Positions 40,600 to 64,000 of a stretch of DNA of 64,000 nt are shown piece after piece (positions within the stretch are counted from its first letter, which is position 1; every line of letters begins with the position of its first letter). Made by a program: the position numbers and the translations under genes. The stretch is from Methanosphaerula palustris E1-9c. GTDB lineage: Archaea; Halobacteriota; Methanomicrobia; Methanomicrobiales; Methanospirillaceae. The stretch spans positions 2,707,242 to 2,771,241 of the forward strand of contig NC_011832.1 in the NCBI RefSeq assembly GCF_000021965.1. The letters are read 5' to 3'. The notes beneath the pieces were generated by a model. That model saw only the letters and a list, made by a program, of their open reading frames with translations, was not told the DNA's origin and did not search any database.

Positions 40600-42828
<2,229 letters not shown>

Positions 42829-42842
42829 TATAACCATCTTCA

Positions 42843-43988
42843 ATGATAGAGAACCTCACGAAGGCGGATAAGGAACTCGGAGAGTGTGGCATAAGGACTG
42901 ACGTTGTCAAGGGTATACCTGGTGGGGCGCCGCCACGAATCATCTCGTGGAATATCACGCTCAGGTGCCCCCTGAAGTGTGCCCACTGTTACGTGGATGC
43001 AGGTGAAAAGGAAGCGGACAGAGTACTCTCCACGCAGGAGGCATTATCTGTCATCGACCAGATCCGGGCGATAGGGAAACCGGTCGTTGTGTTGAGCGGA
43101 GGCGAACCGCTTCTTCGTGAGGATATGTATGATATCGCACGGTACGGCACGGAGCAGGGACTCCGTATGGTCATGGGCACCAGCGGGTACCTCATCGATC
43201 AGGAAACCGCGGCAAAACTGAAGGAAGCAGGAATCCGGGCTGTGGCGATCAGCCTGGACTCGAAAGACCCTGCCACCCATGACGCGTTCCGGGGCCTTGA
43301 CGGCGTATGGGAGAAGGCCACGAAGGCGATCGGTCACTGCCATGATGCAGGGATCGCAGTCCAGATCAACATGTCAGTGATGCGATCTGCCATCAGCGAG
43401 GTGGAAGACCTCATCGGTCTTGGGACGTCTCTTGGTGTCCACGATTACCAGCTCTTCTTCCCCATCCCAACCGGCAGGGCACGGCAGATCGAGCCTCGCA
43501 GCCCGGAGGAATACGAGGAGATGATCCGTCGGATCCTCATCAGATACCGGGACTCCCGCATCAATATCCGGCCAACGTGTGCCCCCCAGTTCCGCAGGAT
43601 AGCAGATGAATGTGGTATTGCGAACCCTGCATGGGGACGCGGCTGTCTTGCCGGTATCACGTATTGCCGGATTTTTGCAAACGGGGATGTCACCCCGTGC
43701 CCGTACCTGCCGGTGAGTGCCGGCAATGTCCGGACCACGCCATTCTCTGAAATCTGGAACAACTCCCCACTCTTTGCCGCACTTCGCGATCCCTCACGAC
43801 TTACGGGAAAGTGCGGGAGGTGCAGTTTTAAGACAAGCTGCGGCGGGTGCAGGGCCCGGGCATACCGGCAGGAGGATGCAGCCTCTCCGCTCTGGTGCGA
43901 CGGCCTTGCAACTCCGGATATAGTGAATGGAGAGATTTGCGGAGAAGATCCATGGTGTCCGTATCAACCACCGGATGTGATCCCATGA
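42843..43988 (+). CDS. ahbD: AhbD-type heme synthase (radical SAM)
   Basis: The radical SAM enzyme decarboxylates iron-coproporphyrin III to heme b in the siroheme-dependent pathway. The SAM cluster motif is CPLKCAHCY (CxxxCxxC), followed by VVLSGGEPLLRED. The C-terminal auxiliary-cluster region has CLAGITYCRIFANGDVTPC, NVRTTPFSEIWNNSP and CGRCSFKTSCGGCRARAY. These match AhbD rather than AhbC, notably the TCAPQFRRI segment and the block around GCLAGITYC. Length 381 is normal. The next gene starts inside its stop codon. Confidence 0.85.
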   Translation: MIENLTKADKELGECGIRTDVVKGIPGGAPPRIISWNITLRCPLKCAHCYVDAGEKEADRVLSTQEALSVIDQIRAIGKPVVVLSGGEPLLREDMYDIARYGTEQGLRMVMGTSGYLIDQETAAKLKEAGIRAVAISLDSKDPATHDAFRGLDGVWEKATKAIGHCHDAGIAVQINMSVMRSAISEVEDLIGLGTSLGVHDYQLFFPIPTGRARQIEPRSPEEYEEMIRRILIRYRDSRINIRPTCAPQFRRIADECGIANPAWGRGCLAGITYCRIFANGDVTPCPYLPVSAGNVRTTPFSEIWNNSPLFAALRDPSRLTGKCGRCSFKTSCGGCRARAYRQEDAASPLWCDGLATPDIVNGEICGEDPWCPYQPPDVIP

Positions 43989-44497
43989 ACAAAACCGTTG
44001 TACCGGACCCGACCGACCTGGCCATACTCAATGCCCTTCAGGATGATCTCCCGCTCGTATCCCGGCCCTGGAGAGCGATCGCGGATCGTCTGAACATTAC
44101 GGAATCCGAGATGCTCGGACGGATGAAACGGTTGGATGGTTTGGGTATTATCCGGAGTATCTCCCCGGTGCTTGAATCCTGCGCTCTCGGCCTGCACGCT
44201 GCGACACTGGTTGCCCTCCATATGCCGGAGGAGAGACTGGAGGAGGTTGCAACCGTTATCAGCAGTTATCCAGAAGTGTCGCACAATTTCCAGCGGGATC
44301 ATTATTACTCCCTCTGGTTCACGATATCTGGAAAGAATGAGGAGGGCATCCGGAGAGTGCTTGATGAGATTCTGCAACAGACCGGGATTCCGGCATCGGA
44401 TATCCTTGACCTTCCGACGATAAAAAAGATAAAAATTGATGTGCGTTTCTCCTTTGTACCTGAACCGCACCAGGAGTGTAATTTTGGATCAGATTGA
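43985..44497 (+). CDS. ahbA: Siroheme decarboxylase subunit AhbA (Lrp/AsnC-like)
   Basis: A 170-residue protein with an AsnC-type winged helix (PWRAIADRLNITESEMLGRMKRLDGLGII) and a ferredoxin-like domain, the fold recruited in siroheme decarboxylase. The active-site-type segment SHNFQRDHYYSLWFTISG fits AhbA (Y/H near the W-F-T). With AhbB it converts siroheme to 12,18-didecarboxysiroheme. An Lrp-type regulator is the alternative reading, but the neighbourhood between ahbD and ahbC decides. The start ATG overlaps the ahbD stop (ATGA). Confidence 0.88.
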   Translation: MNKTVVPDPTDLAILNALQDDLPLVSRPWRAIADRLNITESEMLGRMKRLDGLGIIRSISPVLESCALGLHAATLVALHMPEERLEEVATVISSYPEVSHNFQRDHYYSLWFTISGKNEEGIRRVLDEILQQTGIPASDILDLPTIKKIKIDVRFSFVPEPHQECNFGSD

Positions 44498-44972
44498 TGT
44501 TTGCCTGCTCCGGGAACTTGAACGTGGTCTCCCGCTTGTTCCGGCTCCTTTTGAAGAGATAGGAAAAAGATTGAACCTCAGTGGGGCCGAAGTGGTGGAA
44601 CGGATCAGGCTTTTGAAGGAAGCAGGAATCATAAGAAAATTTCGGGCCCGCATTGACCAGCGGAAAGTGGGAATCTCCGCAAACGCTCTTGTGGCGTGGA
44701 AACTGTCAGGGTCCTGCGATGAGGACAGGGGAAAACTGCTGGCAACATTTCCTTTTGTTACCCATTGCTATGAACGCAGGCCGGTACCGGGACGGTGGGA
44801 GTACACCCATTATACCGTGCATCACGGGTACAGCCGAGACAAGGTACACAATGAGATCAGAACAATTGCAGAACAGATCGGCAGTCCGGATTACCGTGTC
44901 CTCTTCAGCACCCGCGAGTTTAAGCGCATGCCGAACGTGAGGATATGGGAGGACGGGGGAAGTCTCCCATGA
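44484..44972 (+). CDS. ahbB: Siroheme decarboxylase subunit AhbB (Lrp/AsnC-like)
   Basis: Paralogue of AhbA: helix-turn-helix PFEEIGKRLNLSGAEVVERIRLLKEAGIIR (shown here by its ends PFEEIGKRL and EAGIIR) and a ferredoxin-like domain. The segment THCYERRPVPGRWEYTHYTV is typical of AhbB. The best start is a TTG at 44484, eight bases after an AGGAG ribosome site inside ahbA; the similarity begins right there (LDQIDVCLLRELERGLPLVP). The annotated frame can be extended to 44436 but that adds residues read from ahbA. Overlap with ahbA is 14 bases. Confidence 0.86.
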   Translation: MDQIDVCLLRELERGLPLVPAPFEEIGKRLNLSGAEVVERIRLLKEAGIIRKFRARIDQRKVGISANALVAWKLSGSCDEDRGKLLATFPFVTHCYERRPVPGRWEYTHYTVHHGYSRDKVHNEIRTIAEQIGSPDYRVLFSTREFKRMPNVRIWEDGGSLP

Positions 44973-46168
44973 ATCGTATTACCCAGTGCATGCATGGTCG
45001 GGGAACGGTCAGCGATGTGATGCGGCACCGCCACAAACCACAGACCACGGTGCCCAGTACCTATCTTGCATTCTCCGGGATGTACCGACCGGTGATCTTC
45101 TGGAACCTTACGGATCGCTGCAACCTGAGCTGTAATCATTGTTACAACCAGTCTGGCCCGGAACGCACGACTGAAGGAGAACTTACGACCGCTGAAGCGC
45201 TGAAGGTCATCGATGATCTCGCGGATATGGGTGTCCCGCTCATCCTGTTCACTGGTGGGGAGCCCCTTATGCGGGCGGATATCTGGGATCTGGCACAGCA
45301 TGCCAGGAATCGTGGCCTTAAAATGGCCCTTAGTACCAATGGAACGCTGATCACTCCCGACATTGCCCGCAGGATTAAGGAGAGCGGGATTGAGTATGCC
45401 GGCATCTCGCTCGACGGGGCCAGGGCAGAGACTCATGACCGTTTCCGGAATTCACCCGGTGCATTTGAGCAGACACTCGCAGCGTTCGCTGCCTGTAAGG
45501 AGGCCGGGCTCCGGTGCGGGGTACGGGTCACGCTTACAAAGGAGAACTGCCGGGAACTTGAAGCGCTTGTCGATCTCGCCATCTCGCTGGGAGCTTCCCG
45601 TTTCTGCCTGTACTGGCTCGTTCCTACGGGTCGGGGAATCGATTCCTATACCCAGTTGCAGCTGGACCGGGACGAGGTGATCGAAGCCCTCAGCCTCCTC
45701 TACCTGAAAGCAAAAGAGACCGACCCCGCAACCATGGAGTTCCTCACGGTCGATGCCCCGCAGGACTGTATCCACCTGCTCGCTTCCATGGAGAAGGATC
45801 AGTCAGAGGATCTTGTTGATGCCCGCGAACTGCTGGAATCTTTAAAGGGCGGGTGCAGCGCCGGTACCCGCGTGGCAAATATTGATGCACAGGGAAACGT
45901 GTACCCCTGCCAGTTCGCCCGCTCACCGGAATTTCTCGTAGGGAGTGTCCGTAATCTGCCATTCAGCAGGATATGGGCTGACCCTGCCAATCCCGTTCTC
46001 GCTAGGTTCAGGGAAAAACAGGCTCGGTTCGGGGGTCGGTGCGAGACATGCAATTATCGGGATCTCTGCGGTGGCGGCTGCCGGGTCCGGGCTTATGCAG
46101 TGAACGAGAATTTTCTAGCAGAAGATCCCTTCTGTTTTGTCGAGAAGGTCTTCCCAAAACGACAATGA
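44969..46168 (+). CDS. ahbC: AhbC-type 12,18-didecarboxysiroheme deacetylase (radical SAM)
   Basis: A NirJ/AhbC-like radical SAM protein that removes the two acetate side chains to give iron-coproporphyrin III. Motifs: VIFWNLTDRCNLSCNHCYNQ with the CxxxCxxC cluster, LILFTGGEPLMRADI, SLDGARAETHDRFR. The C-terminal cysteines are in GGCSAGTRVANIDAQGNVYPC and CETCNYRDLCGGGCRVRAYA, each quoted in part. Its start at 44969 overlaps the ahbB stop as ATGA. It ends the katG-ahb operon; siroheme supply genes are not in the window. Confidence 0.86.
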   Translation: MNRITQCMHGRGTVSDVMRHRHKPQTTVPSTYLAFSGMYRPVIFWNLTDRCNLSCNHCYNQSGPERTTEGELTTAEALKVIDDLADMGVPLILFTGGEPLMRADIWDLAQHARNRGLKMALSTNGTLITPDIARRIKESGIEYAGISLDGARAETHDRFRNSPGAFEQTLAAFAACKEAGLRCGVRVTLTKENCRELEALVDLAISLGASRFCLYWLVPTGRGIDSYTQLQLDRDEVIEALSLLYLKAKETDPATMEFLTVDAPQDCIHLLASMEKDQSEDLVDARELLESLKGGCSAGTRVANIDAQGNVYPCQFARSPEFLVGSVRNLPFSRIWADPANPVLARFREKQARFGGRCETCNYRDLCGGGCRVRAYAVNENFLAEDPFCFVEKVFPKRQ

Positions 46169-60417: not shown

Positions 60418-61701
60418 CCCCGTATCCGCGACAGATCATCTCTCCTCCATTGTCAAATACTTCCTGCCAATCACCCACTCTTCATTAATGTCCATAAAGA
60501 TCGCTCCTGCAAACCTGAGGAGCGAATCATCATTGGGGAACGCACCCACAACGCTGGTTCTCCATATCAGTTCCTTGTTGATCCTCTCCATGACATTCGT
60601 TGTTCGAATCCTTTTGTGGTGTTGTTTCGAGAATGCCATGTAGTTCAATAGTCCCGGTAGGAATCATTCGATGGTGTTGCCAGCTCTCTGATATCCTCAT
60701 GAATTCAGAGAATCAGCAACTTCCTGAAGTTTCTGTCCGGGTCCATATGCTTCCCTGAGTTGTTCAGCAACCTCCCGCTGATCTTTCTTCGGGATATTCC
60801 TCAAAACGGCTCTAGTTGTATGTACCTCATACATTTGCCACGATGCTCCCAGAAATGCCACAGACACTGCCGGTCTGGATTTCCTGATGACCATCAGAGA
60901 TGACCAGTTGTACGCCGTTCAATCCTCGTTCTTTCATCTCATCGAAGAGCCCTGACCAGAAGATTTCATTTTCGCATGCAGCGATCCTGGCCCCCAGGAT
61001 CTCTCGATATCCATCCTCCCGAACTCCACCTGTCACCAGAAGTGCCTTGGAGACATATCTGGGTCCATCTCGGACCTTAAAATACGATGCATCGACGTAA
61101 AGATATGAAATCGGTTGTTCAAACGGTCGATTGAGAAAAGCCTTCACCTGATCGTCAAGATCGTGTGCGATCCGTGAAACTGAGGATGGAGAGAGTTGTT
61201 CCACGCCCAGATGCGCGGCAATCTCCTGAACTTTCCTGGTTGAAACCCAGCGAAAATCATGGATTTTCTCGACTATCGTCCCTATAAATACGATCCGGCG
61301 ATAGCCTTCACCAAGTCCCCTCTCGACACGGACATATCGCCCGAAGATCTGCGTCTCGAAGGGTTTCTCCCGGAATTGGGGTTTTGTGAGTTTAACATCC
61401 CCATAGCGAGTCGTGAGAGATTGGGATCGAGAACCGTTTCGATGGCAGTTTCTCGTTGCAGTTCGTTCATAGAGATTGGCACCCACTTGTCGATAGGCTT
61501 CGATCTGCATCACCTGGTTCAAAAACAGACACAATGCCAAAGGCCACAAGCATACAAGATGAAAATGCCTGAGAGATTTTCATATAAAACCAGGTGATGA
61601 GACTGCGCATCCCTTCGTCTTTGTCAAAAAGATAATCTTCGATAAACGATAATGGTATCGGCACTGTTTCACCTTTCTCCAATTCTAGGTTGGATACAGG
61701 G
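60418..61701 (-). mobile_element. Degenerate IS256-like insertion sequence
   Basis: Contains a broken transposase and imperfect terminal repeats. The left end CCCCGTATCC (about 60418-60427) corresponds to the right end read inward as CCCTGTATCC (61692-61701). Nine of ten bases agree. Target-site duplications were not identified. Confidence 0.65.
60436..61682 (-). pseudogene. IS256 family transposase, broken
   Basis: Pieces in three or more frames together give a mutator-type transposase. The N terminus is DEGMRSLITWF (61682 onward). A foreign stretch of about 70 bases (around 61520-61590) interrupts it. The main block runs from NQVMQIEAYRQVGANLYERT to the catalytic YLYVDASY and VISDGHQ. A shifted frame continues AVSVAFLGASWQMYEVHTT, and the C terminus carries NVMERINKEL and RTSVVGAFPNDDSLLR. 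At least three disruptions mean no active protein. Confidence 0.88.
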
Positions 61702-61772: not shown

Positions 61773-62108
61773 TTAGCAATTATGCCACTTCTGGCTCCAT
61801 TCAGCCATCGAAAGTAAAACATCTGTGAGATCTTGACCTTTTTCTGTCAGGGAATATTCTATCTTTACCGGCGTGGTATTCTCCACATGTTTTTCAACAA
61901 TTTCATAGATTACAAGATCTTTAAGCTTTGAAGAAAGTGTTTTCGAGCTAATTGGTTTCATGGACTTCAATAATTCGTTAAATCTCATCGGACCCTTTGC
62001 GAGATATAATTGCCGTATCAATAAAAGACTCCACTTGTCCCCGATCAGGATAATTGTTCTTTCTATAGGACAGGGTATGCCCATTAAGTTTTCCGGAAAA
62101 TTGACCAT
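61773..62108 (-). CDS. HxlR family transcription regulator
   Basis: The 111-residue winged-helix protein has the family cysteine near the N terminus (MGIPCPIERT), then GDKWSLLLIRQLYLAKGPMRF, NELLKSMKPISSKTLSSKLK and the wing VKIEYSLTEKGQDL. GC content is lower than in most of the window. It is divergent from the cysteine-repeat peptide gene, 174 bases apart, and probably controls it. A TACTTAGTA palindrome (62184-62192) lies between them and is a possible operator. HxlR proteins often respond to electrophiles, oxidants or metals. Confidence 0.88.
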   Translation of the reverse strand: MVNFPENLMGIPCPIERTIILIGDKWSLLLIRQLYLAKGPMRFNELLKSMKPISSKTLSSKLKDLVIYEIVEKHVENTTPVKIEYSLTEKGQDLTDVLLSMAEWSQKWHNC

Positions 62109-62282
62109 GGTAGATTACCTCAAGGTTATCTGATACCGCTCGTGAAACTTTTGTTATTTATTCTTTCTTTTTCAAACTAGATGTACTTAGTAAAGCAGGT
62201 GAAATGTTGAATGCGGAATCCTGAAAATGTTTTGGTTTTTGCATCTCTACTTCCATTTACTCTAAGTACTGAGGTACAGATC

Positions 62283-62546
62283 ATGCAAAATCTCGGAAAA
62301 ATCAATGATTGGTCTCAAAAGAACTGTGGTTATTTTGCCAAGAGAAGTGCTCAGAGTTACATGAACGGCGTGCAGGGCGCATTGAATTCTCCCAGCCAAT
62401 GCGGATCCTCATGCGGGTCGGGTGAAGGGGGAAAATCTGTGCCTAAAAATTCCACCTGCGGATCTTCATGTGGTTCAGGAGGCGGGAACGAGTCAGTTCC
62501 TAGACTATCACCCTGTGGTTCTTCCTGCGGTGCAGGTGACCAGTAA
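62283..62546 (+). CDS. Putative RiPP precursor with three CGSSCG repeats
   Basis: From the ATG at 62283 (GAGGT upstream) the peptide is 87 residues. Residues 1-39 look like a leader (MQNLGKINDWSQKNCGYFAK, charged and helical). From residue 40 the sequence CGSSCGSG repeats three times with an exact 19-residue period: Cys at 40/44, 59/63 and 78/82. The spacers GG-K/E-SVP-K/R are also conserved. The DNA period is 57 bp. The C-x3-C-x3 spacing and the adjacent radical SAM/SPASM gene suggest thioether or other radical modification of the core. No family match was run; a metal-binding cysteine peptide is the alternative. Confidence 0.75.
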   Translation: MQNLGKINDWSQKNCGYFAKRSAQSYMNGVQGALNSPSQCGSSCGSGEGGKSVPKNSTCGSSCGSGGGNESVPRLSPCGSSCGAGDQ

Positions 62547-62614
62547 ACAATTACCGGCCAATAATTCCAGCTCTGGAACCGATGTAACAGAGCCCGGACC
62601 TTTCTTATTTGCAT

Positions 62615-63691
62615 ATGAGTCGTGCCAAGGTACGACTAAAAGAACAGATGAAAAAAACCATGGAACAATATTTTGCATTTCAATTGCATATCACTGACCG
62701 GTGCGATCAGTGTTGCCAGCATTGTTATATCTATTCAGAAAATAGTTCTGCCCCGGTCAGGGAACTGACATATGAGCAGATTGTAGACATCATAGATAAT
62801 TGTACGGATATGTGCCGGAAAATCCAGCGCATCCCGTATTATTATATAACGGGCGGAGATCCGATCTTACACAAAGACTTCTGGAAAGTCCTTGAACTGC
62901 TGAAATCGAAAAACATCCCATTCGGCATTCTAGGCAACCCATTTCATCTCAACGCAGAAATCTGTACAAAACTGAAACACCTTGGTTGTGAGCGATACCA
63001 GCTCTCCATTGACGGCCTCCGAAAGACACATGACGCAATCCGCAAACCCGGTTCTTTCGATACGACAATAGAAAAAATTGCGTATATCCGTGATGCTGGT
63101 ATCATCTGTGCTGTTATGACAACAGTCTCTCATTCAAATTTACTGGAGATACCTGGAATCATTGACCTTGTTGTGAAAAACCACGTTGATGTTTTTGCCT
63201 TTGCCCGGTATTGCCCGACCAGTTTTGAAAGATGCACCCATGTTTCACCGATGCAGTATAAGGCATTGTTGAAAAAATGCTGGGAAAAATTCGAGGAGTA
63301 CAAAGACAGAGGGACTACCTTTAATCTCAAGGATCACTTGTGGACGCTATATCTCTATGAAAAGGGTCTCTTCTCCATTCCCAAAGGACTTGACGCAACT
63401 ACCATCTATGATGGGTGCAACTGTGGTAACTGCCACCTGACAATCCTATCGAACGGAGAAATATACGCCTGCCGCAGATTTGAAAGCAATATCGGCAATA
63501 TTTTCAAAGACCGGTTATATGATGTGTTTTTCGGCAGCGAAATGGATAAAAAATACCGGGAATCCAAAAAGTTTGAAAAATGTTCAACCTGTGAACTTCT
63601 CCGTTTCTGCCGTGGCTGTCCTGCTGTCGCGTATGGATACACACATGATTTTTATGCAGCAGATCCGCAGTGCTGGAAAGGTGTGATATGA
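62615..63691 (+). CDS. Radical SAM/SPASM peptide maturase
   Basis: About 358 residues. The radical SAM cluster motif is CDQCCQHCY (CxxxCxxC, with one extra cysteine inside), followed by YYYITGGDPILHKDF and LSIDGLRKTHDAIR. The C-terminal SPASM-type region has nine cysteines including CNCGNCHLTILSNGEIYACRRF, quoted for its pattern as CNCGNC and YACRRF, then CSTCELLRFCRGCPA, enough for two auxiliary clusters. This layout is typical of enzymes that modify ribosomal peptides. It begins 68 bases after the CGSSCG peptide. TTG 62609 and ATGs at 62648 or 62660 are other possible starts. Confidence 0.85.
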   Translation: MSRAKVRLKEQMKKTMEQYFAFQLHITDRCDQCCQHCYIYSENSSAPVRELTYEQIVDIIDNCTDMCRKIQRIPYYYITGGDPILHKDFWKVLELLKSKNIPFGILGNPFHLNAEICTKLKHLGCERYQLSIDGLRKTHDAIRKPGSFDTTIEKIAYIRDAGIICAVMTTVSHSNLLEIPGIIDLVVKNHVDVFAFARYCPTSFERCTHVSPMQYKALLKKCWEKFEEYKDRGTTFNLKDHLWTLYLYEKGLFSIPKGLDATTIYDGCNCGNCHLTILSNGEIYACRRFESNIGNIFKDRLYDVFFGSEMDKKYRESKKFEKCSTCELLRFCRGCPAVAYGYTHDFYAADPQCWKGVI

Positions 63692-64000
63692 TGAAAGCGG
63701 TAGTTCTTACAAAAATGTGTAAAGCCGAAGACCTGTATATCAGTGAAATTCCCGTTCCTGCCGTGAAGCCAGGATGGGTACTGGTCAGGGTAAAGGCATT
63801 CGGCCTCAACCGTTCTGAATTGATGTTACGGAGCTATGAAGCGGATGCTCCGTATATCCGATTACCACGGATACCAGGCATAGAATGTGCCGGGGGAAAT
63901 TGCAGATCCTTCAGATAGTAATTTCAGAAAGGGACAGCACGTGATAGCACTCATGGGCGGCATGGGACGAAGCTTCGATGGAGGGTACGCCCAATATGCG
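63688..64000 (+). pseudogene. Zinc-type alcohol dehydrogenase/quinone oxidoreductase, frameshifted and cut by the window
   Basis: The start overlaps the maturase stop (ATGA). MKAVVLTKMCKAEDLYISEI and VKAFGLNRSELMLRSY are the N-terminal GroES-like domain of medium-chain dehydrogenases, and LPRIPGIECAG is the usual glycine segment. After a run of five G at 63892-63896 the frame hits a stop at 63918. If one G is removed the protein continues normally: GEIADPSDSNFRKGQHVIAL, then MGGMGRSFDGGYAQYA to the window end. So it is either a real frameshift or a homopolymer sequencing error. Confidence 0.8.

Follow-up and report, generated by a model that had tools for sequence, protein, structure and literature searches.

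The window analysed here is a stretch of 64,000 nt (positions 2,707,242-2,771,241 of NC_011832.1, a single contig of 2,922,917 bases) from Methanosphaerula palustris E1-9c. Its last part, 61773-64000, holds a cassette composed, in order, of a divergent HxlR-family regulator gene on the reverse strand, a gene for an 87-residue cysteine-repeat peptide, a radical SAM/SPASM maturase gene and an ADH/QOR-type oxidoreductase gene. The cassette is not complete within the window and continues to genome position 2,771,907 (L002:5908). An earlier note on this DNA had described a cysteine-containing HxlR gene divergent from the peptide gene and a radical SAM/SPASM gene downstream of it, and both were confirmed. 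The features are listed in Table 1.

Table 1. Genes and sequence features of the cassette, in window coordinates unless marked L002.
Feature	Position	Strand	Evidence or remark
HxlR/DUF24-family regulator, 111 aa, sensor-type Cys13 in C-P-I motif	61773..62108	-	PF01638 89 bits
Operator-like site 1, palindrome TACTTAGTA	62184..62192	.	TACT-N-AGTA; inverted arms GTACTTAG/CTAAGTAC
Operator-like site 2, palindrome TACTCTAAGTA, directly upstream of the peptide start	62258..62268	.	TACT-N-AGTA
ACGX-type precursor peptide, 87 aa	62283..62546	+	TIGR04341 15.8 bits (< cut-off 28); tblastn to family peptides
Leader motif AKRSAQSY, residues 19-26, conserved	62337..62360	+	Same motif in L033, L034, L038 and L040 peptides
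Repeat block 1, CGSSCG, Cys40 and Cys44	62400..62417	+	
Repeat block 2, CGSSCG, Cys59 and Cys63	62457..62474	+	
Repeat block 3, CGSSCG, Cys78 and Cys82, close to the C-terminus	62514..62531	+	
rSAM_ACGX radical SAM/SPASM maturase, 343 aa	62660..63691	+	TIGR04340 658 bits; alternative in-frame starts 62648, 62609
5' part of QOR-like MDR oxidoreductase	63688..63918	+	ADH_N PF08240; TIGR02824 below cut-off; ATGA overlap with maturase
G5 run (GGGGG) at which the frame shifts: true frameshift or sequencing error	63892..63896	+	Compared with intact L033, L034, L035 and L039 genes
Remainder of oxidoreductase, shifted frame	63897..64000, on to L002:5908	+	ORF L002:5129-5908, PF00107/PF13602

Precursor, maturase and oxidoreductase

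The three CGSSCG blocks at residues 40, 59 and 78, with the exact 19-residue spacing described earlier, are present in the 87-residue open reading frame. At a lag of 19 the window peptide showed 22 identities in 68 positions, a value reached by none of 20,000 shuffles. Homologues favour the start at 62283 over the upstream ATG at 62211. By tblastn, the window peptide matched the upstream peptides of L033, L034 and L041 with 41-45% identity and E-values down to 1.5e-17; it aligned full length with the L034 peptide (Sporomusa silvacetica), found in the same gene order, and whole-length alignments at 41-44% identity were obtained with the peptides of Sporomusa and of a soil Bacillota MAG. Against TIGR04341 (target_ACGX), the L034 and L033 peptides passed the cut-off (48.1 and 33.1 bits), whereas the window peptide did not. 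However, the peptides of L063, L105 and L042 also scored below this cut-off although they lie beside clear ACGX maturases; thus the cut-off is narrow and misses real members, rather than the window peptide being foreign, and its filing under ACGX rests on the maturase and on peptide homology. Judged by its sequence, the window peptide is a divergent ACGX peptide. A plasmid search with it gave no match, and no convincing second precursor was found in the same genome (next match, E 0.13).

The maturase scored 658.2 bits over residues 3-342 against NCBIfam model TIGR04340 (radical SAM/SPASM domain protein, ACGX system; cut-off 400), and of the RiPP types that had been offered for the locus, the family search bore out the ACGX-type repeat system. 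The next best model was SbtM (TIGR04082), with 180 bits over a shared 320 residues and a cut-off of 350 that was not reached. The mycofactocin maturase model TIGR03962 (74.2 bits, cut-off 265) and the thioether-maturase models StsB (65.5 of 625 bits), PapB (62.1 of 340) and SkfB (59 of 300) also remained below their cut-offs. The motifs CX3CX2C and TGGDP are present, and eight cysteines of the SPASM region (253, 255, 271, 308, 311, 317, 320 and 338) were invariant in an alignment of 30 relatives, a number that would be enough for two auxiliary clusters. The rSAM domain begins at residue 11 and an N-terminal RRE is absent, a lack still compatible with thioether chemistry. In an AlphaFold2 model (pLDDT 87), the nearest PDB folds were SkfB and SuiB, followed closely by CteB and anSME, at 14-20% identity; this similarity of a predicted structure fixes the fold and not the reaction. 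The maturase is likely to modify the cysteines of the precursor peptide.

Two further radical SAM/SPASM genes of the window (42843-43988 and 44945-46168) were considered as partners of the peptide and rejected, because their best matches, below the cut-offs, are the heme/heme d1 families NirJ2/AhbD and AhbC/NirJ and not peptide maturases. In the same region (40624-46168) they follow a catalase-peroxidase-like gene (KatG, by reading of the sequence), and two small NirD-like regulator ORFs lie between them, so the cluster is of heme-synthesis type and adjoins a heme enzyme.

The ATGA overlap between the maturase gene and a following dehydrogenase gene was found as had been reported, but that gene is not intact: two frames had been joined. 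The first frame ends at 63918; after the GGGGG run the gene goes on in another frame, where its remaining 259 codons are open. In L033-L035 and L039, the sequence corresponding to the G5 region reads through. The single-base shift in the G run may be an assembly or sequencing error or a real lesion; since the gene is frameshifted, the oxidoreductase step may be lost here, or the sequence may contain an error. The term 'zinc-type', applied to it earlier, stands as a Pfam domain label only, because by profile the protein comes closest to the PIG3 quinone-oxidoreductase subfamily (TIGR02824), with a score far below the model cut-off.

Relatives, repeat unit and origin

We compared the cassette with 80 related loci whose maturases are 57-73% identical; these loci were found through the maturase and come mostly from rumen MAGs, so their counts are not independent. 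An ACGX-like peptide accompanied the maturase in 66 of the 80, and in 10 of the 14 misses the sequence upstream is shorter than 650 bases. L077 and L090 show variant peptides. Because the maturase matches TIGR04340 and homologous peptides accompany it in these 66 loci, the window locus is a further ACGX cassette and an additional member of this named family; that it is an ACGX radical-SAM modified-peptide cassette is almost certain. The hosts include Bacteroidota, Bacillota, Methanobrevibacter, Methanosphaera, Thermoplasmatota, Elusimicrobiota and a Treponema. Members of the family are frequent in gut methanogens, Bacteroidales and Bacillota; the expectation that such systems are rare in methanogens was wrong for it, with 15 Methanobacteriota and 2 Thermoplasmatota among the 80 loci. 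Strong co-conservation of peptide and maturase was seen across related loci, but it has no support in Methanomicrobiales: among 393 genomes sampled from the phylum (33 of the same family and 50 more of the order), only this one passed TIGR04340, and the other Methanomicrobiales in the sample gave no match at the cut-off.

The repeat unit was analysed in 67 distinct peptides with 412 core cysteines. Gly follows the core Cys in 400 of the 412 cases and Ala precedes it in 358, while position +2 is mostly Ser or Ala. Eleven of the 67 peptides, including all Methanobrevibacter and Methanosphaera forms found, have no CxxxC (CGxxCG) block, and the commonest block periods are 17-19 residues. Given these counts, the conserved unit of the family, as read from the aligned peptides, is A-C-G-x and not the CxxxC pair, and neither the pair nor the 19-residue period is special. 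The earlier note had taken the period as unusual, where it follows the family rule, and had proposed pairs such as Cys40/44 as the modified unit, which the peptides without CxxxC and the near-universal Cys-Gly do not support. It had also suggested cleavage at SVPK/SVPR to give three products. These residues are not conserved across the family peptides, and the neighbourhoods of related loci contain no recurrent protease or exporter; since neither is conserved, the release of three products is unsupported. The search for the chemistry is thereby redirected from CxxxC crosslinks to single A-C-G-x units.

The cassette is of horizontal origin. In the maturase tree, the window protein is nested within Bacillota, where it joins Sporomusa, a soil MAG and Clostridium (support 98/87 and 97/96), on a long branch, and the cassette has a GC content of 44% between flanks of 53% and 61%. 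Because of this placement and GC content, acquisition from a Bacillota-like donor is the simplest reading of the sequences and is probable. The copies in Methanobacteriota and Thermoplasmatota are unconnected with the transfer into M. palustris. A Mutator-type transposase ORF (PF00872) with further fragments lies upstream of the cassette (window 60436-61549, reverse strand), and a DDE-type transposase ORF lies downstream (L002:6205-6860, reverse strand), which suggests an insertion bounded by mobile elements.

Regulator and companion genes

The NCBIfam models nearest to the HxlR protein are those of the redox regulators RrpB and RrpA, below cut-off. In related loci, the HxlR proteins of the cassettes retain a CP[VIM] motif where DUF24 regulators have their sensor cysteine. 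The family combines an HxlR-family regulator that has a conserved N-terminal cysteine with neighbouring oxidoreductases of detoxifying type. Furthermore, TACT-N-AGTA occurred in 11 of 25 intergenic regions between HxlR and peptide genes, compared with 1.8 expected, a post hoc comparison made with simple shuffles on related sequences. DUF24 regulators of Bacillus subtilis sense quinones, diamide and HOCl through an N-terminal cysteine, those with a sensor cysteine also sense aldehydes, HxlR itself senses formaldehyde, and genes under DUF24 control include those for nitroreductases and flavin reductases; YodC, a nitroreductase, and HypO, a reductase, are among the targets (PMC6943732, PMC7835342).

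Gene content was counted in the 38 complete loci (at least 1.5 kb of sequence upstream and at least 2.6 kb downstream). The peptide was present in 35, HxlR in 31, a QOR-like MDR gene in 22, a PNPOx-like FMN/ferredoxin protein in 19, a nitroreductase in 14 (one on the opposite strand) and a SirTM-like sirtuin in 10. The first gene downstream of the maturase, determined in 73 loci, was an MDR gene in 30, as in the window, a nitroreductase in 27 and PNPOx-like in about 10. Within 2.6 kb, densities per 100 kb were 17.9 for HxlR, 12.1 for QOR and 10.6 for nitroreductase, against 1.2, 0 and 0.4 at 3.4-6 kb, so that all three were roughly 10-fold or more rarer at the greater distance. Neither metal transport genes nor mycofactocin-like accessory genes recurred in the related neighbourhoods.

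Across the 80 loci, 41 had only a QOR gene and 33 only a co-oriented nitroreductase gene, while none had both and 6 had neither (Fisher 1e-16, a value that ignores relatedness). The tree needs 14 changes between QOR and nitroreductase, at least 7 of them forced by well-supported branches. That one NAD(P)H oxidoreductase has been exchanged for another with an unrelated fold suggests a role for this enzyme that is bound to the cassette. We rejected the broader idea that all oxidoreductase types are alternatives: QOR and PNPOx-like genes co-occur in 13 of the 38 complete loci, and only QOR and nitroreductase exclude each other.

Some loci carry additional genes or another gene order. Downstream in L033, L034, L035, L039 and L043 we found a SirTM-like sirtuin, a macrodomain protein (protein-ADP-ribose hydrolase) and DUF1848 in varying combinations, and these neighbours link ACGX to an ADP-ribosylation stress operon; SirTM and macrodomain genes have been linked elsewhere to the oxidative-stress response (PMC4518038). 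In some Bacteroidota loci the gene order is flexible: the nitroreductase gene lies upstream of the peptide gene in L072 and L083, a PNPOx-like gene separates peptide and maturase in L102, and the peptide is about 0.8 kb upstream in L104. In the Elusimicrobia loci L077 and L097, ACGX-type maturases occur with variant peptides (GCGCSSC and TGCN units), and the adjoining gene, in place of a redox gene, is apparently of the TupA-like ATP-grasp type (PF14305). It is possible that these two systems have functionally diverged.

Proposed function and likeness to known systems

We found no paper on ACGX, TIGR04340 or TIGR04341 in the open-access literature, and two RiPP-mining studies of rumen isolates and Bacteroidales do not describe ACGX; the family is known by name, not by function. 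The usual companion genes indicate protection from reactive, thiol-damaging chemicals and not a secreted antibiotic. We consider the best explanation of the locus, with a probability of roughly 0.5, to be an electrophile/disulfide-stress operon in which an intracellular modified Cys-Gly peptide works with the oxidoreductase, and we see about an even chance that the ACGX system serves electrophile or disulfide stress. In such an operon, the HxlR protein would sense reactive electrophiles or oxidants through its N-terminal cysteine and would control the divergent genes through the TACT-N-AGTA sites. The 87-residue precursor would be recognised through the AKRSAQSY leader, and the SPASM enzyme would modify the cysteine of the repeated (A/S)-C-G-x units, as the strict conservation of Cys-Gly suggests. 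The mature peptide would remain intracellular as a thiol/redox peptide together with the co-encoded NAD(P)H oxidoreductase, for which it might be a substrate or carrier, or by which it might be finished. Since HxlR regulators commonly sit beside nitroreductases at loci with no peptide, the stress genes may be neighbours for reasons of regulation and not functional partners.

A thioether RiPP of the sactipeptide or ranthipeptide kind, with cysteines crosslinked within each CxxxC block and separate bioactive peptides released, would account for a SPASM maturase beside a Cys-repeat precursor and for the fold likeness to the RiPP maturases SkfB and SuiB and the thioether enzyme CteB. We regard it as rather unlikely, given the 11 peptides without a CxxxC block, PapB, StsB and SkfB scores of 59-66 bits, far under the cut-offs, the absence of an N-terminal RRE and a recurrent neighbourhood that has neither exporter nor protease. 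The peptide could also be the precursor of a cofactor like mycofactocin or PQQ, an electron carrier for the adjacent QOR or nitroreductase. The exchange of that NAD(P)H/flavin oxidoreductase between two unrelated folds would fit, and mycofactocin, in which dedicated dehydrogenases accompany an rSAM peptide, sets a precedent (PMC3023750); however, the number and spacing of the ACGX repeats differ between peptides, whereas the C-terminus of the mycofactocin precursor is almost invariant, and no mycofactocin-like accessory genes recur, which makes this reading unlikely. By analogy with SbtM, whose model is named 'thio(seleno)oxazole modification' and ranks next after TIGR04340, the peptide might bind or buffer metal, or its Cys-Gly might be converted to a heterocycle. 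This is quite improbable: the SbtM score is about half the cut-off, the name is a database label for which we found no paper, and metal transport genes do not recur.

Compatible with any of these family functions is the reading that a mobile island brought the cassette into this genome, where it is now a decayed, non-functional remnant. The oxidoreductase frameshift and the transposase ORFs on both sides speak for decay; the peptide, maturase and HxlR genes are intact with conserved motifs, and one indel in a G run may reflect an error of sequencing, so that we doubt it. The electrophile/disulfide-stress reading may tentatively be widened to a widespread and so far unrecognised defence of bacteria and methanogens, in which a radical-SAM enzyme makes a Cys-Gly repeat peptide into an intracellular thiol or redox carrier. 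If this were true, the ACGX peptide would be a ribosomal counterpart of glutathione or mycothiol, serving interchangeable QOR-type and nitroreductase enzymes under an HxlR sensor. The comparative result weighs more than the locus itself: ACGX was previously only a name, and the shared neighbourhood of a sensor-Cys HxlR, QOR or nitroreductase, PNPOx-like ferredoxin protein and, in some loci, SirTM/macrodomain genes gives it a testable function in redox or electrophile stress.

Among known systems, the ACGX system (TIGR04340 with TIGR04341) agrees with the cassette in a maturase far above cut-off and an upstream repeat peptide with a shared leader and C-G-S units; in contrast to it, the window peptide has Q/T/P or S instead of Ala before the cysteine, and scores 15.8 against 28. 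SbtM/SbtA is the closest other maturase family, similar across the whole rSAM/SPASM part, but it stays below cut-off and about 200 N-terminal positions of the SbtM profile are absent from the window maturase. The ranthipeptide and sactipeptide maturases PapB, StsB, SkfB and CteB share the rSAM/SPASM architecture and Cys-containing substrates, whereas the cassette lacks an RRE, gives weak profile scores, has no export genes and belongs to a family in which CxxxC blocks are not invariant. Mycofactocin likewise links an rSAM peptide maturase to oxidoreductases, but with another precursor type, no common accessory genes and oxidoreductases of other families or subfamilies. The MarR/DUF24 electrophile-stress regulons of Bacillus subtilis (YodB-yodC/azoR1, HypR-hypO and HxlR-hxlAB) also place an N-terminal sensor-Cys regulator beside a nitroreductase or quinone-type oxidoreductase; ACGX adds to this arrangement a Cys-repeat peptide with a predicted radical-SAM modification, and it occurs in archaea and Bacteroidota as well.
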